In this document: piece after piece, positions 7,802 to 18,206 of the stretch
Layout: each line of letters starts with the position of its first letter
Numbering within the stretch: the stretch's first letter is position 1
Source of the DNA: Robiginitomaculum sp.
GTDB lineage: Bacteria > Pseudomonadota > Alphaproteobacteria > Caulobacterales > Maricaulaceae
Assembly (NCBI GenBank): GCA_002733805.1
Contig: NVXG01000030.1
Location: forward strand, 1 to 64,000
Direction: 5' to 3'
Length of the DNA: 64,000 bases
Notes under the pieces: generated by a model
Database searches by the model: none
The model's input: the letters and a program-made list of their open reading frames with translations, nothing else
Told to the model about the DNA's origin: nothing
Position numbers and translations under genes: made by a program

Positions 7802-7936
7802 TTGTTCGGCCCTTTTGATAAATTTGGTTCGGTGTAAACTGAACTATACAAACAGGCAATTGATCCCTTGCCCTGAAAGGGTTTCTGGGACCATAAACAG
7901 CGACATTTTTGCTTTTTGACAAGAAACGTATCTGTA

Positions 7937-9022
7937 ATGACGCAACCCCTCGAGAACATCCTGCATCGCTTGGAACAATTGGTGGCGATTGACACGCGAA
8001 ATCCACCAAGAGCGATGGACGCGAAACATCCGATTGTTGGCGCGTTAGCTGCCGGGTTTGAAGACAGTGCTTTGTCGCTCAATGATCTGGGTGAGGGCTG
8101 TGTGCAAATACTATTGCAACGCGGTTCTCCCTCTACCCTGATCAATATCCATGTGGATACCGTGCCTTGTGCTGATGGCTGGAGCCATTCTCCTTTTGCC
8201 CTGCACCGAGCCGAAGACCGGGTGTATGGCCTTGGGGCATGTGACATCAAAGGCGCTGCGGCCTGTGCGATAACCGCCGCTCAAGCCGGGAGCGATGACT
8301 TCGCCCTGTTGTTCACCACTGATGAAGAAAATGGACAGGGAAGGTGCGTAGAGGAATTTGCCAATAGTGATCACGGGTTTTCAAAGGTTATTGTCTGCGA
8401 ACCTACTGGCTCAAAAGCCATTTTTGCCCATCGAGGATTGGGTGCCTATGAATTGGAATTTGCAGGTACCAGCATGCATTCTTCCGAATGGGCCGCGCTG
8501 AAAAGCTCAGCCATCCATCGGGCTGCAAACTGGATTTCTGCCGCCTGTACCTATGCGGATAAAAAGCGGAAACAAGGTGGAGATTTACCCGGCATTTGTT
8601 TTAATTCCGGACATATCGAAGGCGGCATCAAACCCAACATTTGCGCGCCAAATTGCAGTTTGAATTTTGGCATGCGTCCGGGACCAGAATATAAGCTGGA
8701 GACCATTGCCGCCGAATTGCAAGCTCTGGTTCCAAGCGAACATTTCGTAAAATTTGAACAATCGTATGGCAGTCCGGCGCTTAGCTTAAGCGGCCAACAA
8801 TTGAATGATGCTCAATATCTGGCCAATCGACTGGGGATTGCAACGGGTGATCCGGTCAATTTTTGGACGGAGGCTGCGTTGTTCTCGGACGCGGGTCTGC
8901 CAGCATTCGTATTTGGACCGGGCGATATCGCCCAAGCCCATGCGGTCGATGAGTGGGTGAAATACGAGCAATTGCTCTATGTTCATTCAGTATTTGAGAA
9001 AGTATTTGCGTTCGATGACTGA
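7937..9022 (+). CDS. M20 deacetylase of arginine synthesis (acetylornithine or acetylcitrulline deacetylase)
   Basis: 361 residues of the M20/ArgE/DapE zinc metallopeptidase family. Metal and catalytic residues are visible: 'INIHVDTVPCADGW' (His and Asp), 'LGACDIKGAAA' (bridging Asp), 'TTDEENGQG' (catalytic Glu pair) and a late 'AQAHAVDEWV' histidine. It sits in front of an argB/NAGS fusion and argC with an 8-base overlap. That is the order seen in organisms using N-acetylcitrulline rather than N-acetylornithine as the deacetylase substrate. I therefore favour ArgE' (acetylcitrulline deacetylase), but the sequence alone cannot exclude ordinary ArgE. I use the ATG at 7937; the track's TTG at 7916 adds MTRNVSV with no better ribosome site. 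Confidence 0.85.
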   Translation: MTQPLENILHRLEQLVAIDTRNPPRAMDAKHPIVGALAAGFEDSALSLNDLGEGCVQILLQRGSPSTLINIHVDTVPCADGWSHSPFALHRAEDRVYGLGACDIKGAAACAITAAQAGSDDFALLFTTDEENGQGRCVEEFANSDHGFSKVIVCEPTGSKAIFAHRGLGAYELEFAGTSMHSSEWAALKSSAIHRAANWISAACTYADKKRKQGGDLPGICFNSGHIEGGIKPNICAPNCSLNFGMRPGPEYKLETIAAELQALVPSEHFVKFEQSYGSPALSLSGQQLNDAQYLANRLGIATGDPVNFWTEAALFSDAGLPAFVFGPGDIAQAHAVDEWVKYEQLLYVHSVFEKVFAFDD

Positions 9023-10352
9023 GCAAAAATCAGAAACCAGCGCCACCCGGCAATTGGTCCGCGAATTATTGGGCGCCATGACCGAAGGGCGCGAAGTCCG
9101 TGCGTGGTTAAAACAGTTCGGTCAATTGCAGCCAGAACGCTTTGCCATCGTCAAAATTGGTGGCGGCACCCTACGCGATGAACTGGATACAATTTGCTCG
9201 GCATTATCGTTTTTACAAAAACTGGGGCTGTCCCCGATAGTCGTACACGGCGGCGGCCCGCAGATTGATACTGCATTGGCCGACGCGGGCATCAAAACGC
9301 CGCGACTGGATGGGTTACGCGTCACATCCGAACAGGCCATGCCGATCATTTCGGCGGCTTTACGCGAAGTCAGTCTGAACTTTATTTCCGCCTTGAATGC
9401 ACAAGGCGTGCAAGCTCAATTCTGCCCGGCCGATACGGTACAGGCTAAGCTGGTTAATCCCCAAAAATACGGCCGGGTCGGCGCGCCAGATAGTATCAAT
9501 TATCAGGCCATTACCCGCTCGATCCAACAAGGTAACCTTCCAATCCTGACCAGTATTGCGATTGGACCAGATGGCAAGCAAGTCAATGTAAATGCCGATG
9601 CACTGGTGCGGGATCTAGCCATTGGTTTGAAGCCACAGAAAATTATTTTCCTGACACCCACTGGCGGTATTCTAGATGAAAATGGCCAGCGTATTTCAGT
9701 AGTTCAATTGGTCAGTGACTACGAAAATCTAGTTACTCAAGATTGGCTGAATGGCGGTATGCGTTTGAAATTACAGCAAATCCAGGAAACTCTGGATGAA
9801 CTTCCGTTGACCGCCTCGGCGGCCATTACCAGCCCCGATAAACTGATCAAAGAATTGTTCACCCATAGTGGCTCAGGCACATTGATTCGCAAGGGTGAAG
9901 CTATTCATGTCATTCGGGATTTTGATGACTTGGACCGAGCGGCAATTTCCGAGTTGATCGAAACGTCCTTTGGGCGAGACTTGCATTCGAATTTCTGGAA
10001 GAAAACCAATTTTGAATTTGCTGTTCTTTCGCAAAGCTGCCGGGCTGTGGCCATGGTCAGTCGCTTGGACGAAACGTTGTATCTAGACAAATTTGCCGTG
10101 TTGGAAGAAGCCAGAGGCGAGGGGTTGGGCGCTGCGGTCTGGACCCGATTGTTACAAGAAGCGCCGTGTCTTTTTTGGCGCTCACGAGTGGGAAATCCAA
10201 TCAATCCATTTTATTTTCAGGAAGCAGATGGCAATTGCAAAATTGGTCAATGGCAAGTTTTTTGGCGCGGTTCCATTGACTGGCCAAATGTCCATTCGCA
10301 CCTCAAGGAAATTGCAGACCTGCCGGACTCCTTTTTGAAGGAGTCGCAATAA
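9015..10352 (+). CDS. Bifunctional N-acetylglutamate kinase / N-acetylglutamate synthase (NAGS-K)
   Basis: 445 residues with two domains. Residues about 35-290 are an amino-acid kinase fold: 'FAIVKIGGGTLRD', 'PIVVHGGGPQID' and 'IIFLTPTGGILDENG' are acetylglutamate kinase motifs. Residues about 300-440 are a GNAT domain of the vertebrate-like NAGS type: 'YLDKFAVLEEARGEGLGAAVW' binds acetyl-CoA, and 'FWRSRVGNPINPFYF' is the family signature. The enzyme would make acetylglutamate and phosphorylate it, the first two steps of arginine synthesis. The start at 9015 (ATG) overlaps the deacetylase stop, and the stop shares one base with the argC ATG. This fusion is known from Maricaulis, Parvularcula and Xanthomonas relatives. 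Confidence 0.93.
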   Translation: MTEQKSETSATRQLVRELLGAMTEGREVRAWLKQFGQLQPERFAIVKIGGGTLRDELDTICSALSFLQKLGLSPIVVHGGGPQIDTALADAGIKTPRLDGLRVTSEQAMPIISAALREVSLNFISALNAQGVQAQFCPADTVQAKLVNPQKYGRVGAPDSINYQAITRSIQQGNLPILTSIAIGPDGKQVNVNADALVRDLAIGLKPQKIIFLTPTGGILDENGQRISVVQLVSDYENLVTQDWLNGGMRLKLQQIQETLDELPLTASAAITSPDKLIKELFTHSGSGTLIRKGEAIHVIRDFDDLDRAAISELIETSFGRDLHSNFWKKTNFEFAVLSQSCRAVAMVSRLDETLYLDKFAVLEEARGEGLGAAVWTRLLQEAPCLFWRSRVGNPINPFYFQEADGNCKIGQWQVFWRGSIDWPNVHSHLKEIADLPDSFLKESQ

Positions 10353-11278
10353 TGCCTGTTAAAAAGATTGGCATCATTGGCGGGCGTGGTTTTGTCGGCG
10401 CCGAATTGATCGAAATTCTAAACGATCATCCAAATTTGGAATTGGAATTTGCCTCTTCATCTTCAAATGCTGGCAACGCCATTCCCGGCACTGATCTCAC
10501 GTTTATTGACGTGCAGCCTGAAGACATAAAACAATTCCCGCAGCTTGATGGGCTGATCCTAGCTTTACCGAATGGCCAAGCAGCTAAATGGGTGCAGGCA
10601 GTAGATCAAGCCGGTCTGGATCTTTGCATATTGGATATCAGCGCCGATTTTCGCTTTGATGCGGGTTGGGTTTATGGATTACCTGAGATCAATCGCCAGC
10701 TTTTGCACGGCGCACGACGTATTTCCAACCCCGGCTGCTATGCCACGGCGGCGCAACTTGCACTATTTCCCATCCGGGACATGTTGGCCGGCCCAGCTAA
10801 TATCTTCGGAGTTTCCGGGTTTTCCGGGGCGGGTGCTACGCCAAACCCAAAAAACGACCCTGAACACCTGAAGGACAATTTAATACCCTATTCGCTGATC
10901 GATCATATTCATGAGCGCGAAATCAGTCACCAATTGGGGCAGCCCGTACATTTTAGCCCGCATGTTGCATCTTTTTTTCGCGGCATCAGCCTGACGATCC
11001 ACCTGAATTTTAGCGCCCCGATCAACTCCGAAGCACTGCGGAACAAGTTCGAGGAATTCTATCAGGATCATCCTTTGATATCTGTCAGCGAAACCATTCC
11101 AGAAGTAAAACAGGTGGTCCATTCACCAACAGCCCGCATTGGCGGCTTTCACGTCGATGAGACAGGGCGCCATGGCGTGATCATTGTTGTGCTCGACAAC
11201 TTGTTAAAAGGCGCAGCATCACAAGCTATACAAAACTTGGAGCTGGCGCTGGGTACTGGTCAATCGAAGCGAAATTAG
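10352..11278 (+). CDS. argC: N-acetyl-gamma-glutamyl-phosphate reductase
   Basis: Catalyses the NADPH-dependent third step of arginine synthesis. The 308 residues begin with a Rossmann motif, 'KIGIIGGRGFVGAELI', and contain the catalytic cysteine in 'RISNPGCYATAAQLAL'. 'GVSGFSGAGATPN' and the late 'SPTARIGGFHVDETGRHG' agree with the family. It is the shorter type of ArgC. An AAGGAG site ends inside the preceding gene and the start shares a base with its stop (TAATG), so the three arginine genes form a tightly coupled operon. The 3' end overlaps the opposing hydrolase by 4 bases. Confidence 0.95.
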   Translation: MPVKKIGIIGGRGFVGAELIEILNDHPNLELEFASSSSNAGNAIPGTDLTFIDVQPEDIKQFPQLDGLILALPNGQAAKWVQAVDQAGLDLCILDISADFRFDAGWVYGLPEINRQLLHGARRISNPGCYATAAQLALFPIRDMLAGPANIFGVSGFSGAGATPNPKNDPEHLKDNLIPYSLIDHIHEREISHQLGQPVHFSPHVASFFRGISLTIHLNFSAPINSEALRNKFEEFYQDHPLISVSETIPEVKQVVHSPTARIGGFHVDETGRHGVIIVVLDNLLKGAASQAIQNLELALGTGQSKRN

Positions 11279-12150
11279 TCAACTTCCCCGACAAATTTGC
11301 GGATAGCCGCCCAGCTTTGTGGTTCGATTAAAGTTGGTGCGTGACCAACGTTCGGCACAATGCTTACGGCTAGATCGGGTTTTCGTGATTTCATTGTCTG
11401 GAGAGTTTCGGCCGACAGAATGTCACTGATTCCGCCTCGGATTACCAAGGTTGGTATTTCTTTTAAAGCCATAAACAAGGGCCATAAATCAGCCAAATCC
11501 TGATTGCCTGGCGTTACCGATTGACTGATTTTCGGATCGTAATTGACGATCAATTGACCATTCTCGTCGTTGCGAAAGGTTTTTTTAGCAAAATCCAGCC
11601 AGAATTCATGACCCGTTTCATTGGGATAGGCGGCTCCATTGATCTGTTTGATCCGGTTGGCCGCATCATCCCAAGAGGTCACAGGCGTACTTTTACCCAC
11701 ATATCCTTGAATACGGGCCAAGCCCTTTGGATCAATCTCTGGCCCAATATCATTGATGATGGCGCCGGTCATGCGCTCGGGCGCGGCTGACGCGGCGATC
11801 ATGGTCATCAATCCGCCCATGCTGGTTCCAATGAAAAGTGCTTTTTTGATGCTCAAATGGTCGAGTAATCCCAGCATATCTCCGGTATAGATCAGCGGGC
11901 TATAGCGCGCCGGGTCTGTCTCCGGGTCAGAATCTCCACGGCCACGTTGCGAGGCGGTGATTACTTTTCGTCCCATCATGGCAAGGCGAGGGGCCAGATC
12001 TTCAAAATCCAGTAGACTGCGGGTCAATCCATGCAGACACAGGATCGGCACGCCGGTTTCTTCACCGCCCATCGCTTCATAGACGCGGTAGGCAATCTGC
12101 GGCCCTTCTGCGGTTTGCATCTTGTGGTCGGAAAAGTCGGGCTTTTGCAT
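11275..12150 (-). CDS. Alpha/beta hydrolase
   Basis: A 291-residue cytosolic alpha/beta-hydrolase fold. The oxyanion strand is 'PILCLHGLTRSLLDF', the nucleophile elbow is 'FIGTSMGGLM' (G-x-S-x-G), and the catalytic histidine is in 'VPNVGHAPTLIEP'. 'ASQRGRGDSD' is the usual R-G-x-G-x-S/D loop. The set of motifs resembles haloalkane dehalogenase/esterase-type hydrolases, but the substrate cannot be read off. It has no signal peptide. It lies head to tail with a second hydrolase 46 bases away and may share its transcript. Confidence 0.85.
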   Translation of the reverse strand: MQKPDFSDHKMQTAEGPQIAYRVYEAMGGEETGVPILCLHGLTRSLLDFEDLAPRLAMMGRKVITASQRGRGDSDPETDPARYSPLIYTGDMLGLLDHLSIKKALFIGTSMGGLMTMIAASAAPERMTGAIINDIGPEIDPKGLARIQGYVGKSTPVTSWDDAANRIKQINGAAYPNETGHEFWLDFAKKTFRNDENGQLIVNYDPKISQSVTPGNQDLADLWPLFMALKEIPTLVIRGGISDILSAETLQTMKSRKPDLAVSIVPNVGHAPTLIEPQSWAAIRKFVGEVD

Positions 12151-12196: not shown

Positions 12197-13138
12197 TCAA
12201 TCCGATTTTCTAGCCGTCAAAAAGTCGCGGACAATCTGGGCGCTTTTCACTGGCTTTTCTTCCTGGCCCATATGGCCGACATCTTCCAGCAAGACAAATC
12301 TGGCGTCTTGTATGGCTTCGACAATTTGCTGACCTTGGGCGGGCGGGATCAATCGATCCTGCCCACCCCAAAGCACTAAAGTTGGGGCTGTTATCCAAGC
12401 CAGTTGCCGCAAAGGGTCAGGCATGGTGAACATGGCAATATGGGCAATCAATGCATCTGCATTGCCTTGGCGCAACATCATGTCCTGCATGCTCTGCAAC
12501 CGGGTATCCGTCAGCCGGGAAGGGTCGGCCCACAAAAACACTGCTGCCTGTTTTAGTCCGGACATCGGCGCAAAGCGCAAAAACGCCGCCATGGCAGCCG
12601 GTGCTTTGACGGGTTCATCGTGAACCGCGTTAAACGCAAAGGCCGGACCATCAACCAAAATCAATTTTTCAACACGATCCGGAAATTGCGCGGCAAACCG
12701 CCATGCAATGGTGCCACCTAATGAGTTTCCAGCTAGATTGACTGTCTTCAGTTCCAATGAATCGAGTAGTTTTTCCAAAAAAAATGCACGTTGTTGCGGC
12801 GTATATCTCTGTTTTGGATCAGGTCCAGTCAGGCCGTGCCCCAGCAGATCATAGCGCACAATGCGAAAATCGCGTTGTAATTCAGCAACCCAACCATCCC
12901 AGCTTTCCAACGAATAACTGAACCCATGCAACAGCACCAAAACCGGCGCTTGGTCCGGCCCCTCGATCCGCACCCGGACCCGAGCACCATCAATTTCAAT
13001 AAAACGATCGTCGGCAGTCAAATACCGGGCTTCAAGTTCTGCTGGCACATTGCCCTCGCTCTTTTGGGAGACCCAAACCCAACCGGCAATTACGGCGATC
13101 AGAATTACGGCCAACGCGATCCAAAAAAACTTCTTCAT
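12197..13138 (-). CDS. Membrane-anchored alpha/beta hydrolase
   Basis: 313 residues when started at the ATG at 13138. That start has GGAG upstream and places a hydrophobic anchor (KKFFWIALAVILIAVIAGWVWV) at the N-terminus; the track's start at 13213 adds an unlikely 25-residue leader. The hydrolase core shows 'VLVLLHGFSYSLESW', the nucleophile 'LAGNSLGGTIAW', the loop 'RYDLLGHGLT', an acidic residue in 'WGGQDRLIPP' and a late histidine in 'LEDVGHMGQEEKP'. It is likely anchored in the inner membrane facing the periplasm. It follows the TonB receptor gene, separated by a terminator-like hairpin. Confidence 0.85.
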   Translation of the reverse strand: MKKFFWIALAVILIAVIAGWVWVSQKSEGNVPAELEARYLTADDRFIEIDGARVRVRIEGPDQAPVLVLLHGFSYSLESWDGWVAELQRDFRIVRYDLLGHGLTGPDPKQRYTPQQRAFFLEKLLDSLELKTVNLAGNSLGGTIAWRFAAQFPDRVEKLILVDGPAFAFNAVHDEPVKAPAAMAAFLRFAPMSGLKQAAVFLWADPSRLTDTRLQSMQDMMLRQGNADALIAHIAMFTMPDPLRQLAWITAPTLVLWGGQDRLIPPAQGQQIVEAIQDARFVLLEDVGHMGQEEKPVKSAQIVRDFLTARKSD

Positions 13139-13225: not shown

Positions 13226-15523
13226 CTAATGGCGCCAGACCAACGTCGCGGTAATGGTTCGGGGTGCACCAAAAAACGCGGTCAAATTGCCTTCCAGTCC
13301 CAGTGTGGTATTGGTGACAAAATCATATCCGGCAACTTTGTATTTCTCATCGGTAATGTTCTTGGCGTGAATGCCAAACTGCCAGCTTTTATCATCACTG
13401 TTCCAAATCAAAGATGAGTTCCACAGCGCAAAGGCGTCCTGATCAATTGGCGAAGCCAGCTCGAACTGTTGCGAGTCGCCCCGATACGAAATTGTATTTA
13501 AGAAGGTCAGGTTTCCGTTTTGAAACGGTGCGCTATAGTTCAAAGTAGCCGATGCGGTTAGATCCGGGGTATTTTGCACCTTCGCTATATTTGAAATATC
13601 CACACCAAACGCGTTGATAAATACCTTGTAGTCAGCGTCCAATACACCCAAAGCCCATTGCACGGACCATGCATCGCCCGGTGTGAAGGCATCATTCGCT
13701 AATTGCAAATTCCCCTCAAACTCCAACCCTTTGATTTCGATAGAGCCGGCATTGGAGGTCACACCGGTAAAGGTGTCATTTATCCCATCGCCATCGGTAT
13801 CCAACCCAACGGAACCCGGCACCTGCACATCCTTATAATCGGCATAGAAGGCTGAAATGGAATGGCTATATGCGCCCATTTGAGTTTTCCAGCCAATTTC
13901 ATAACTGTCCACTTCTTCCGGTTCAAAAGCCATGAACTGAAAGATTTCAGCCTGACTTACATTGCCATCGCTATTCAAATCAGGCGCGCCGGTCGATTGT
14001 GCCCGCGGATCAAAGCCGCCGCCTTTGAAGCCCTGACTAAAGCTGACATAGAAATTATTGTTTGCATCCGGCTTCCAAGCCAGTGAAATATGCGGACTAA
14101 AATCGGTCCAGGAATTAGTGCCGTTGAAGTCAGAAGTAACAGCAATCGGGAAGCCGGTTCCACCAAATGTAGGTGAAAACCCACCTAAGAACGTGGTCCG
14201 CAGCACTTGTGCAGTGCGCTGATCATCTGTGTACCGTCCGCCCAGTGTAAGGCTGAATTTATCAGTCAAATCATAGGTGAAATCGCCAAATACCGACCAG
14301 GTTTCAGTGCCTACATCACCAAGGGTTTGCGCTTGCAAGCCGGGTAATCCGATAAGCCCGCCCAGATCAGCCAACAACACGTCAAATACATTGAAGGTTT
14401 GCGCGTCGAGATAATAGAACCCCGCGACACCGGAAAGTTTGTCGCTCTGATACAACACTTGAAATTCTTCAGAGAATTGCTCGTTATTTACTTGAAAGGG
14501 TGCTTCCAGATCAGAGTTGGGCAGACTGTCAAAATCGATCGGGGAAATCGTGTCATCATCGCGATAGGCCAGAATGTTGCGGAACGTCCAATTTGGATTG
14601 GCTTGCCATTCGGCTAGGAAGTTGATGCCTTTTGATTTGACCTCCTGATCAACAATGGTCAGCCCGGCCCGGGTATCAAACACATTATCCAGAACCGGCG
14701 CGCCGGTAAACCCGCCAACCAACAGGCGGTGCCCGTTTTTGGCATTGGAATCATCGTCCATAATATCGCCACTTACGCGCAAAAATAGGCCATTGCCCGG
14801 CTCAAACTCGGCTGATAATCGACCGGCCCAAACCGATTTGTTGTAATTGTCCTGACCGGTGGTCAAGTTGTCGCCATACCCGCTATGGGACAAGCGAGCC
14901 ACTGATCCGCCAACGCGAAATGTATCGCTTAACGGCGCGCTAGCCATCACAATGCCGTCCAACTGGTTGTAGGAGCCTGCGTTTAACTTGACCGACATTG
15001 TTGGTTTTTCTGGATTGATCCGTTTAGTCACATACTTGACTGCGCCACCAATGGTATTTCGGCCATACAGAGTGCCTTGTGGTCCGCGTAATATCTCAAT
15101 GCGTTCAACTTCATAAATATCCAAAACAGCGGCTTGCGGGCGATTGAGGTAGACATCATCCAGATAAATACCAACGCCCGGCTCAAACCCGGCAACCGGA
15201 TCTTGTTGTCCAACACCACGAATAAAGGCGGTCAATGTGGAGTTGGTCGCACGAGAGTATTCCAGCGTCACATTTGGAGTGGTTTCATTCAATGCGGTGA
15301 TATCTGCCGCACCACTTAATTCCAATGCTTCGCCAGAATACGCTGTAATCGACATGGGAACATCAAGAATTGATTCTTCTCGTCTTCGAGCCGTAACCGT
15401 AATGGTATCAGGTCGAACCGCCGCTGCGTCTTGCGAGAACGAAGGGCTAGCGGCCAGAACGGGCAATACAAAAACACTTGCCAGTAAGGCGCGGCCATAA
15501 ATGCTGGTTTTTAATTTGGTCAT
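13226..15523 (-). CDS. TonB-dependent outer-membrane receptor
   Basis: 765 residues with the start at the ATG at 15523 (GGGGAG upstream). The signal peptide is MTKLKTSIYGRALLASVFVLPVLAASPSFS. A TonB-box-like 'DTITVTARRREE' is followed by the plug domain ('VPMSITAYSGEAL', 'IRGVGQQDP', 'VERIEILRGPQGTLYGRNTIGG'). The rest is a 22-strand-type barrel with repeated aromatic strand ends, finishing 'PRTITATLVWRH'. The ligand is not readable from sequence. The type resembles the many organic-substrate receptors of sphingomonads and Hyphomonadaceae rather than a classical siderophore receptor. A palindrome shared with the neighbouring acyl-CoA synthetase gene lies in its promoter, which suggests control by the adjacent TetR protein. 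Confidence 0.92.
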   Translation of the reverse strand: MTKLKTSIYGRALLASVFVLPVLAASPSFSQDAAAVRPDTITVTARRREESILDVPMSITAYSGEALELSGAADITALNETTPNVTLEYSRATNSTLTAFIRGVGQQDPVAGFEPGVGIYLDDVYLNRPQAAVLDIYEVERIEILRGPQGTLYGRNTIGGAVKYVTKRINPEKPTMSVKLNAGSYNQLDGIVMASAPLSDTFRVGGSVARLSHSGYGDNLTTGQDNYNKSVWAGRLSAEFEPGNGLFLRVSGDIMDDDSNAKNGHRLLVGGFTGAPVLDNVFDTRAGLTIVDQEVKSKGINFLAEWQANPNWTFRNILAYRDDDTISPIDFDSLPNSDLEAPFQVNNEQFSEEFQVLYQSDKLSGVAGFYYLDAQTFNVFDVLLADLGGLIGLPGLQAQTLGDVGTETWSVFGDFTYDLTDKFSLTLGGRYTDDQRTAQVLRTTFLGGFSPTFGGTGFPIAVTSDFNGTNSWTDFSPHISLAWKPDANNNFYVSFSQGFKGGGFDPRAQSTGAPDLNSDGNVSQAEIFQFMAFEPEEVDSYEIGWKTQMGAYSHSISAFYADYKDVQVPGSVGLDTDGDGINDTFTGVTSNAGSIEIKGLEFEGNLQLANDAFTPGDAWSVQWALGVLDADYKVFINAFGVDISNIAKVQNTPDLTASATLNYSAPFQNGNLTFLNTISYRGDSQQFELASPIDQDAFALWNSSLIWNSDDKSWQFGIHAKNITDEKYKVAGYDFVTNTTLGLEGNLTAFFGAPRTITATLVWRH

Positions 15524-15599: not shown

Positions 15600-15624
15600 A
15601 TTTCAACGTTGTATGAAATGTCAA
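15600..15624 (-). promoter_or_regulatory. Candidate TetR operator with -35 element, TonB receptor promoter
   Basis: The plus-strand sequence ATTTCAACGTTGTATGAAAT (15600-15619) has perfect 6-base half-sites, ATTTCA-N8-TGAAAT. Read on the minus strand it lies directly after TTGACA (15624-15619), a perfect -35 box, so the palindrome fills the -35/-10 spacer. A weak -10-like region (TATCTA) follows at 18-19 bases. A near-identical copy is found at 16461-16480. A repressor bound here would block the receptor promoter. Confidence 0.6.
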
Positions 15625-15745
15625 GTTATTTTCTACACTTGTTTAATTTTGGTTTTTAGTGTTGCATTCAACAAACAGCAGCGGCTTGCGAATTGGACCA
15701 AAATTCCGTAGTGATTTGCCAAAGACATAATAGAAGAACGATTTT

Positions 15746-16402
15746 ATGGCCAAAAGAGGCGACGTAACACGAAACAAAATCCAGGATGCAGCAGAAGAAC
15801 TGTTTGCAGCTAGAGGTTTTTATGGCGTGACTGTGCGAGAAATCACCCGACTGGCCGGTGTGGATACGGCGCTGGCAAACTACTATTTTGGTTCCAAGAA
15901 AAACCTGTTTGACAGTGTCTTGCTCCGCAGGGCGGAAGGGCTGAACGAAGCCCGGCTAAAAGCGCTAGAAGACGTTGAGCGCGAAGCAGGGGACAACCCA
16001 CCCGACCTTGAAAAAGTTATTGATGCCTTCACCCACCCCTTGCTGGATCGTTCAGAACGCGGCGGGCCAGAGTGGAAATCCTATTTTGCTCTGATTGCAC
16101 AGGTAAACAATTCGCCAGAATGGGGAGGGCGGATGATGACGGAGTATTTCGACCCCTTGGTTCGCCGGTTTATTGCCGCGATCAAACGGGCGCTACCCAA
16201 CACGCCTGATGAGGATATATATTGGGCTTATCATTTCTTATCTGGTGCTTTGGTGCTGACCTTTGCCGAGACCGGCCGGATTGATAATTTGTCGGATGGG
16301 CTGTGCCGTTCCAGTGATCTGGAAAGTGTGCACCGCCGGTTACCGCCATTTATTGCGGCTGGGTTTCGGGCATTAAAAGAACGAGACAGCGAAAAATCAT
16401 AA
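15746..16402 (+). CDS. TetR family transcriptional regulator
   Basis: 218 residues. The N-terminal helix-turn-helix is classical TetR: 'RNKIQDAAEELFAARGFYGVTVREITRLAGVDTALANYYFGSKKNLF'. The C-terminal domain ('DAFTHPLLDRSERGG...', 'YFALIAQVNN') resembles the CerR/RutR-like ligand-binding class. It lies between the divergent TonB receptor gene and the acyl-CoA synthetase gene, and two copies of a shared imperfect palindrome flank it. The simplest model is a local repressor of both neighbours that responds to the imported compound or its CoA thioester. That is inference; the ligand is unknown. Confidence 0.9.
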   Translation: MAKRGDVTRNKIQDAAEELFAARGFYGVTVREITRLAGVDTALANYYFGSKKNLFDSVLLRRAEGLNEARLKALEDVEREAGDNPPDLEKVIDAFTHPLLDRSERGGPEWKSYFALIAQVNNSPEWGGRMMTEYFDPLVRRFIAAIKRALPNTPDEDIYWAYHFLSGALVLTFAETGRIDNLSDGLCRSSDLESVHRRLPPFIAAGFRALKERDSEKS

Positions 16403-16460
16403 TCTTTGGCTACGCTTTGGATATTGTTCGCTAAAAATTACATCATCCAATAGAAAACTT

Positions 16461-16480
16461 ATTTCAACGTAGTATGAATT
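16461..16480 (+). promoter_or_regulatory. Second copy of the candidate TetR operator
   Basis: ATTTCAACGTAGTATGAATT matches the copy at 15600-15619 at 18 of 20 positions. It lies 125 bases before the acyl-CoA synthetase ATG and just upstream of a TTGACA (16484-16489) that could be its -35 box. The -10 element is not clear. Confidence 0.6.
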
Positions 16481-16604
16481 TCCTTGACATTCGCTCCAAG
16501 TTTGAATTTGCTTTCCGTACAACCAATCGGAGCAGAACCATCTACATCATCGTCTTTTTTACACTAGAAGTGAACAAAATGCTTTCTGTCAGGCGGGGTT
16601 TTGC

Positions 16605-18206
16605 ATGACAAATGCCAATCCATCCGACTTGGTTCACTCCACAATACACCGAACGGACACTGGCCTGACCGGACGCGCACCCATGTTTTCAGATATTCTT
16701 GCCCTGCATGGCAAATGGCGCGCCAACAAACCCGCTTTGGTCGATAATGGTCAACCAATCAGTTGGGCTGAACTCGATGCTAGCGCTAATCAGGTTGCGA
16801 ATGCTCTATTGGCATCTGGGCGAACAAAAGGCGATGTGATCGCACTTTTGATGCAAAATGGCCGTGAAATGGTTGAAGGTCTGCTCGGCATTGCCAAAGC
16901 CGGAATGGTTTCGGCTCCCTTGAACCTGTCGGTCACGGACGAAGCCATAGAGGCGATGATCAAGGACGCGGATGCCAAGGGCATTTTGACCAGTTCTGAT
17001 CAGGCCATTCGGCTTTGCTCCAACAAAACCATTATGGAACTGCCCCTTAAAGTTACCTGCGAGTCCAATAGAGAAATCGAAAATTGGATGAATTGGGGCG
17101 ACTGGCTCAAGGAACAATCCCAACAGGCACCAGATTGCCGATTGGAACCAGGTGATCCGTTTAATATCATCTATTCTTCCGGAACCACCGGACAACCCAA
17201 AGGAATTGTACACACCCAGCAAACAAGGCTGGACTGGGCTTATGATCTATCGATTGCACTGCGATACCACGGAAATTCGCGCACCTTATGCACCTTAAAT
17301 TTGTACTCCAACATTGCCTGGGTGCAAATGATGTGTACTTGGCTGGCCGGGGGAACCTTGTATTTGCTGCGTAATTTTGATGCCGGGGACGTGCTAACTC
17401 AAATTGAAACCCATAAAATCAGCCACACCGCCATGGTTCCTGTACAGTTTCAACGCCTGCTGGATCACAAGTCTGCGGCACAAACTGATCTAAGCTCCAT
17501 GCAAGCCATGATGTCTTGCGGTTCTCCATTGCATGAAGAATTAAAAGCCAGGATTTTTGATCGATTTTCCTGCGGCATCATTGAGTTATACGGATTGACC
17601 GAGGGCGTGATCACCACATTGGAGCCAGAAGAAATAGAGGGGCGGTTGGCCTCAGTAGGCCGCCCGTTGATCGGTACTGATCTTTGCTTGCTGGACGATA
17701 ACGATCAATTGTGTCCCATTGGGCAGGCTGGGGAGATCCTAAGCCGGGGGCGTATTGTCATGCCGGGCTATCACAATCGATCCGATGCCAACCAGCAATG
17801 CACATGGATCGACCCGCAGGGCAGGGCGTGGCTCCGTACCGGCGATATTGGAAAACTGGATGCCGAAGGCTATCTCTATATTGTGGATCGCAAGAAAGAC
17901 ATGATCCTATCCGGTGGGCAAAATATCTATCCAGCCGATATCGAAGCCGTTTTGGTTGAACACGCGCAAGTGCGTGACGCAGCAATTATAGGCATTCCAT
18001 CCAAAGACTGGGGAGAAACGCCAATCGCATGGGTCGAGCCCAAAGCAGATACGAAACCGGACACCGATGAAATTATGGAATGGCTCAATCAACGAGTGGG
18101 CAAACGACAGAGAATTCGGGCGGTTTATCTGATTGACACCTTACCTCGCAATCCAAATGGCAAGGTCTTGAAGCGAGAGTTGCGTGATATTTCAACTGCC
18201 GGGTAA
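16605..18206 (+). CDS. Acyl-CoA synthetase (AMP-dependent synthetase/ligase)
   Basis: 533 residues of the ANL superfamily, activating a carboxylic acid as an acyl-AMP and then an acyl-CoA. The P-loop is 'NIIYSSGTTGQPKGIVHT', the A5 motif is 'IIELYGLTEGV', the hinge is 'WLRTGDIGKLDAEGYLYIVDRKKDMI', 'SGGQNIYPADIEAVL' follows, and the catalytic lysine is in 'LPRNPNGKVLKRELR'. All core motifs are intact. The substrate may be a medium or long-chain, aromatic or terpenoid acid; sequence does not decide. It stands alone after its own promoter region, which carries the shared palindrome, and is probably co-regulated with the TonB receptor. Confidence 0.92.
   Translation: MTNANPSDLVHSTIHRTDTGLTGRAPMFSDILALHGKWRANKPALVDNGQPISWAELDASANQVANALLASGRTKGDVIALLMQNGREMVEGLLGIAKAGMVSAPLNLSVTDEAIEAMIKDADAKGILTSSDQAIRLCSNKTIMELPLKVTCESNREIENWMNWGDWLKEQSQQAPDCRLEPGDPFNIIYSSGTTGQPKGIVHTQQTRLDWAYDLSIALRYHGNSRTLCTLNLYSNIAWVQMMCTWLAGGTLYLLRNFDAGDVLTQIETHKISHTAMVPVQFQRLLDHKSAAQTDLSSMQAMMSCGSPLHEELKARIFDRFSCGIIELYGLTEGVITTLEPEEIEGRLASVGRPLIGTDLCLLDDNDQLCPIGQAGEILSRGRIVMPGYHNRSDANQQCTWIDPQGRAWLRTGDIGKLDAEGYLYIVDRKKDMILSGGQNIYPADIEAVLVEHAQVRDAAIIGIPSKDWGETPIAWVEPKADTKPDTDEIMEWLNQRVGKRQRIRAVYLIDTLPRNPNGKVLKRELRDISTAG

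Follow-up and report, generated by a model that had tools for sequence, protein, structure and literature searches.

Two near-identical 20-base repeats flank a tetR gene in a Robiginitomaculum contig, one on the side of a TonB receptor gene and the other on the side of an acyl-CoA synthetase gene. The question that this locus raises is whether a single repressor acts at both repeats and ties the uptake of a compound to its activation with CoA. The window, as the term is used here, is the whole stretch of DNA that was analysed, 64,000 nucleotides of contig NVXG01000030.1; its relevant features are listed by position.

11275-12150 (-): alpha/beta hydrolase 2 (ABH2), PF00561, GTSMGG motif, PDB relative 3bwx; cluster member c1
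12197-13138 (-): alpha/beta hydrolase 1 (ABH1), PF00561, N-terminal membrane anchor, GNSLGG motif; cluster member c2
13226-15523 (-): TonB-dependent outer-membrane receptor, 765 aa from the ATG at 15523, PF00593 and PF07715
15597-15624 (-): sigma-70-type promoter of the TonB receptor gene, TTGACA, 16 bases, AATTAT
15600-15619 (-): candidate operator 1 (O1), ATTTCATACAACGTTGAAAT on the receptor-gene strand, given as ATTTCAACGTTGTATGAAAT at 15600-15619
15629-15648 (strand not assigned): candidate operator 3 (O3), TTTTCTACACTTGTTTAATT, a weaker dyad (11/14) just upstream of the -35 box
15746-16402 (+): TetR-family regulator, 218 aa, PsrA/NicR-like
16461-16480 (+): candidate operator 2 (O2), ATTTCAACGTAGTATGAATT, 5' of the acyl-CoA synthetase gene
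16605-18206 (+): AMP-forming acyl-CoA synthetase, 533 aa, PF00501 and PF13193

Candidate operators in the window and in the genome

Direct inspection of the sequence placed O1 and O2 where the sequence-only reading had put them, identical at 18 of 20 bases and with the TetR gene between them. That reading described the pair as near-identical palindromes; the near-identity stands, while the palindromy holds only in the sense of imperfect dyads, with six-base outer arms around an asymmetric centre, and the third copy, O3, had been overlooked. O1 and O2 are degenerate forms of TTTCAAC-N4-GTTGAAA, in which the right arm reads TATGAA where the consensus has GTTGAA. At up to three mismatches they are the sole matches in the window (the mean for shuffled sequence was 0.05, and no shuffle held two) and also in the whole 3.72 Mb genome, through which the motif is not scattered. 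O3 lies 29 bases from O1, and the receptor region of Hyphobacterium likewise holds two copies 29 bases apart; the Hyphobacterium orthologues also have a site of 12-13/14 ahead of the acyl-CoA synthetase gene, as O2 is in the window. The sites that flank the TetR gene are very probably docking sites of the predicted TetR repressor.

A scan with the consensus found five places in the genome at up to one mismatch. Four of these are coding (glnA, an integrase-type gene, an hflK-like gene and a ctp-like gene) and were set aside, which left only the fifth, just ahead of an MFS gene on contig 4. The glnA place is a perfect TTTCAAC-N4-GTTGAAA inside the coding sequence (G000 contig 21, 43881-43898; L081:1501-1518); it is probably there by chance, and it makes plain that a perfect dyad is not sufficient in itself. 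A wide genome regulon drawn from a loose pattern was rejected, as there were 618 forward matches against 450 control matches at three mismatches. A first site model, R1, held the window and MFS sites and was set aside as circular; its replacement, R2, holds no sites from this genome or from its 98%-identical relative. In the whole-genome scan with R2 the MFS site is the best match in the genome (E 0.08), and O3 is among the nine reported matches; O1 and O2 are not among these nine, being too degenerate for R2, so that they rest on orthology instead. R2 matches on contigs 43 and 104 were discarded, one not lying beside a gene start and the other lying inside a gene.

The remote MFS gene is orthologous to cluster member c3 of related genomes (up to 57%); a possible promoter, TTGACA/TAAATC, lies upstream of its operator. 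The genes 3' of it, for a carboxylate-amine ligase and an N-formylglutamate amidohydrolase-like protein, look unrelated. The predicted regulon can be extended beyond what was first noted, by the two hydrolases, O3 and the remote MFS transporter; as the transporter illustrates, the operator can point to pathway genes that gene order misses.

The cluster, its regulator and the likely substrate

The receptor, ABH1 and ABH2 genes form a leftward run and the synthetase gene runs rightward, with the TetR gene between. The PDB relatives of ABH1 are esterases and lipases. For the synthetase the best NCBIfam model is PRK06187 (fatty-acid CoA ligase subfamily), with a score below its cut-off, and the PDB relatives are FadD5, FadD13 and the 4-coumarate and feruloyl CoA ligases. 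Elsewhere in the window, a deacetylase-like gene, a gene for a 457-aa protein that reads as an N-acetylglutamate kinase fused to an acetyltransferase domain, and an argC-like gene stand in a row (7916-11278) that looks like an arginine cluster of the Xanthomonas type.

The TetR protein carries a TetR_N domain (PF00440, 49.3 bits, above the cut-off of 24) and a C-terminal TetR_C_30 domain (PF17939, 130.5 bits, above the cut-off of 26.3); against the PsrA equivalog model NF053516 it scores 104.2 bits, under the cut-off of 300, and thus fails as PsrA proper. Its nearest structure in the PDB is 2fbq, with NicR (5fhp/5fgl) second-best, over nearly the full length. NicR is a local repressor of a nicotinate-degradation cluster and is not known to sense fatty acids. 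The nicotinate catabolic genes are absent from the window cluster, and the likeness to NicR is one of TetR protein structure. The closest solved and modelled relatives fall in the PsrA group (PsrA of Pseudomonas and Vibrio, TfmR of Xanthomonas, SMLT2053 of Stenotrophomonas). PsrA sites, like the candidate sites here, are palindromes spaced by N4. The PsrA operator at rpoS in P. putida is TTCAAAC-N4-GTTTGAA (PMC13104628); neither this nor GAAAC-N4-GTTTC, the operators of PsrA proper, is matched here, the N4 spacing being shared and the half-site being TTTCAAC instead. PsrA relatives govern acyl-degradation genes, and the Xanthomonas TfmR governs mhpC too; unlike PsrA, which controls beta-oxidation and rpoS, the window regulator would have a small local set for uptake and activation, headed by the TonB receptor. 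Two TetR-type regulators of proteobacterial acyl catabolism, FadP and LiuQ, whose regulons were worked out by comparative genomics (PMC5343134), are comparable by role in that they govern acyl-CoA metabolism; their targets, unlike the window regulon, are genes for the degradation of fatty acids or branched-chain amino acids.

A search of 137 genomes from the family gave relatives of the TetR protein (E ≤ 1e-30) in 47, and most of their loci hold a receptor, hydrolases, an MFS carrier and often a synthetase, in several gene orders. In L065 a non-orthologous CoA ligase that passes a general acyl-CoA synthetase model is encoded in the receptor operon, after the receptor and the MFS carrier; in g16-type genomes no close synthetase orthologue was found elsewhere, in a search run at a strict cut-off and without a positive control. 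Across the order, TetR orthologues at about 50-57% occur in 182 of 398 genomes. In Caulobacter-like loci the tetR, receptor and MFS genes follow in succession, with TTTCATC-N4-GATGAAA ahead of the receptor gene, and several have a gene for an RPE65-type oxygenase directly before tetR. The RPE65/carotenoid-oxygenase-type gene near tetR-receptor-MFS in Caulobacter- and Brevundimonas-like loci (L116:4470-5921, and also L118, L119, L125 and L122) encodes a Tat-like signal. At L126, L127, L120 and L123, TetR orthologues (51-55%) stand without a receptor cluster or operator nearby.

In loci for carbohydrate scavenging a TonB receptor acts as one unit with a transporter of the inner membrane, enzymes of degradation and a local regulator. 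The window differs from such TonB receptor loci (PMC1790865) in its enzymes, alpha/beta hydrolases and a CoA ligase, and in its PsrA-like regulator, a difference that suggests an acyl or aryl compound and not a sugar. The members of the cluster always point the same way (receptor, hydrolases, MFS carrier, CoA ligase), and the compound is probably an ester. Fatty acyl esters are favoured by the relatives of the synthetase and of the regulator, aromatic esters by the PDB relatives of the CoA ligase and by the RPE65-type neighbour in Caulobacter-like loci. An aromatic (phenylpropanoid-type) ester or dimer in place of a fatty acyl ester is a real but lesser possibility, and one that concerns the substrate only. 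Besides the resemblance of the synthetase to 4-coumarate and feruloyl CoA ligases and the oxygenase gene directly before tetR-receptor-MFS, it can draw on a weak similarity of the MFS carrier to aromatic-acid symporters and on a crotonase gene beside the CoA ligase gene in g13; however, PF03055 (RPE65 oxygenase) is absent from the window genome, the best matches of the synthetase are fatty-acid ligases, the L065 ligase passes the general acyl-CoA synthetase model, and those PsrA-like regulators that have known ligands sense fatty acids.

Operator position and the direction of control

A promoter scan of the minus strand agrees with the earlier proposal that the first site fills the spacer of the receptor promoter: O1 lies directly after a perfect TTGACA (15624-15619), which it overlaps by one base, and AATTAT follows as the -10 box 16 bases on. 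The second site, as had also been proposed, precedes a TTGACA (16484-16489) ahead of the acyl-CoA synthetase gene, from which O2 is separated by 4 bases; the promoter ahead of this gene is below the threshold of the promoter scan. Overlap of the operator with the core promoter appears as constant TTGAC offsets at the receptor gene only. In at least 14 genomes (window, Hyphobacterium and degenerate-site genomes) the operator core begins 7 bases on from the TTGAC start, inside the -35/-10 spacer of the receptor promoter, which is a classic place for a repressor; in another set of genomes it starts 20-26 bases after the TTGAC start, over the -10 box, often with a second copy 17 bases on. A position in the spacer or over the -10 box fits repression by exclusion of RNA polymerase. 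For tetR itself, the sites lie 98-146 bases upstream in the divergent arrangement, and there are none in the g12-type arrangement.

We consider it highly likely that a local PsrA/NicR-like repressor acts at operators of the TTTCAAC-N4-GTTGAAA type and that uptake, hydrolysis, transport and CoA activation are co-induced. A TetR dimer would bind at the promoter of the operon for the receptor and two hydrolases (at O1 and probably also at O3), at O2 ahead of the acyl-CoA synthetase gene, and at the remote operator in the 5' region of the contig-4 MFS gene; once on O1, it would occupy the spacer between the -35 and -10 boxes and keep RNA polymerase out. The operator would be freed by a ligand, most likely an acid that is set free from the imported compound, or the CoA ester of that acid, and on release of TetR outer-membrane uptake, ester hydrolysis, transport and CoA activation would rise together. 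Control of the synthetase gene is the least certain step, since the -35-like box there is weak and has O2 on its upstream side. Comparison between genomes supports the proposed operator and its targets, as well as the pairing with this TetR; binding, repression as the direction of control, the dimer contacts, the ligand and the ester nature of the substrate are what we infer.

The location of O2 before a -35-like box, together with the report of PsrA both as a repressor and as an activator of rpoS (PMC13104628), would suit a TetR that is an activator, or that represses the receptor gene and activates the synthetase gene. We regard this as unlikely, since the operator in the receptor promoter fills the spacer or overlaps the -10 box, the MFS operator lies downstream of its possible promoter, and for the synthetase gene the promoter is weak and putative.

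A local repressor of this kind would be an ordinary mechanism; the reading is well supported, and the regulon itself is apparently undescribed: a literature search, with most subscription papers outside its scope, found no description of it. For many TonB receptors in such bacteria the substrate is not known. A defined operator and regulon offer a direct route to the substrate of the receptor, by way of compounds that release TetR.

Pairing of the dyad with the regulator

Nearly all of the regions upstream of the receptor genes hold TTTCAAC-N4-GTTGAAA or a degenerate form of it, with TTTCAACGTTGAATGAAA in one group. When all 4,096 six-base half-sites with an N4 spacer were enumerated over the receptor promoters, TTCAAC ranked first and the next-ranked half-sites were its close variants; at up to two mismatches the TTCAAC dyad occurs in 29 of 30 receptor promoters, spread over 14 of 15 genera. 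The exception is L078, where the sites lie ahead of tetR and the receptor gene then follows in the same direction. The related loci together span 472 kb, and each of the 30 matches at 12/14 or better in them falls in a promoter of the cluster. The dyad stays with the receptor gene even where this is convergent with the TetR gene and its promoter is more than 2 kb off (g12, g17, g18 and g5); in that arrangement no good site was found ahead of the synthetase/hydrolase/MFS operon or of tetR, which leaves the receptor as the only constant target. Whether these loci make up an undescribed uptake and catabolic system that spans the order is evenly poised in our judgement. In such a system a single ester-type compound (a lipid or phenylpropanoid) would be captured by a non-iron TonB receptor, two hydrolases (one membrane-anchored), an MFS carrier and a CoA ligase, and the PsrA-like regulator would have held on to its receptor target through repeated changes of half-site, promoter position and gene order.

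The site was absent upstream of the receptor gene in all 11 genomes that lack an orthologue of this TetR and keep a relative of the receptor (at about 60% in g13 and at 41-46% in two of the same genus), the best match there being 9/14. Site and TetR thus co-occur in 29 of 30 loci with the regulator and in none of the 11 without it (Fisher p about 4e-9, a value that ignores kinship and overstates the evidence, the genus count being the fairer measure). This pattern, in which the site is conserved with TetR and absent without it, is best accounted for by the proposal that a single repressor would govern how one compound is taken up and activated with CoA. In g13 this TetR is replaced, next to the orthologous receptor operon, by a different one (L162:5833-6441 (-), and also L163, L164 and L167), which adjoins genes for an enoyl-CoA hydratase-like protein (crotonase) and a CoA ligase. 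Four wider g13 loci gave no site at or above 11/14. The g13 receptor gene closely follows another hydrolase gene, and its promoter is probably further upstream. Judged by its sequences, g13, a single genus, is a regulator swap with the operator gone, and it serves as a natural control for the pairing of regulator and operator.

That the dyads belong to another regulator, the neighbouring TetR being incidental, is improbable. Related genomes do contain further TetR genes, and tetR itself is without a site in some arrangements, but the site tracks this TetR, there is none beside the TetR paralogues with an HHTL helix in the 472 kb of related loci, nor in g13 with its other TetR, and in Caulobacteraceae-like genomes the helix (VDTALIHYYFG) and the site (TTTCATC-N4-GATGAAA) are both different. 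A simple code from helix to half-site (YHF versus YYF) was dropped, since L078 and L128 break the pattern.

The repeats are short and imperfectly symmetrical, yet that they are chance or duplication remnants without regulatory function is extremely improbable, as chance is excluded by the shuffles, the whole-genome scan and the half-site ranking, and all three sites are kept in the nearest relative (O1 at 19/20, O2 at 20/20 and O3 at 20/20) in intergenic DNA that is otherwise 79% (in the O1 comparison) and 67% identical. Comparison of the intergenic regions of related genomes likewise upholds the conservation of the dyads beside orthologous TetR genes. The same intergenic DNA of the nearest relative holds further conserved blocks, and O2 sits inside one of them. 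Between O3 and tetR, at 15660-15673 of the window, lies a second conserved dyad, TGTTGCATTCAACA, of the opposite arm order (GTTG-N4-CAAC); it sits in a block that is identical in the nearest relative and is possibly part of the tetR promoter.
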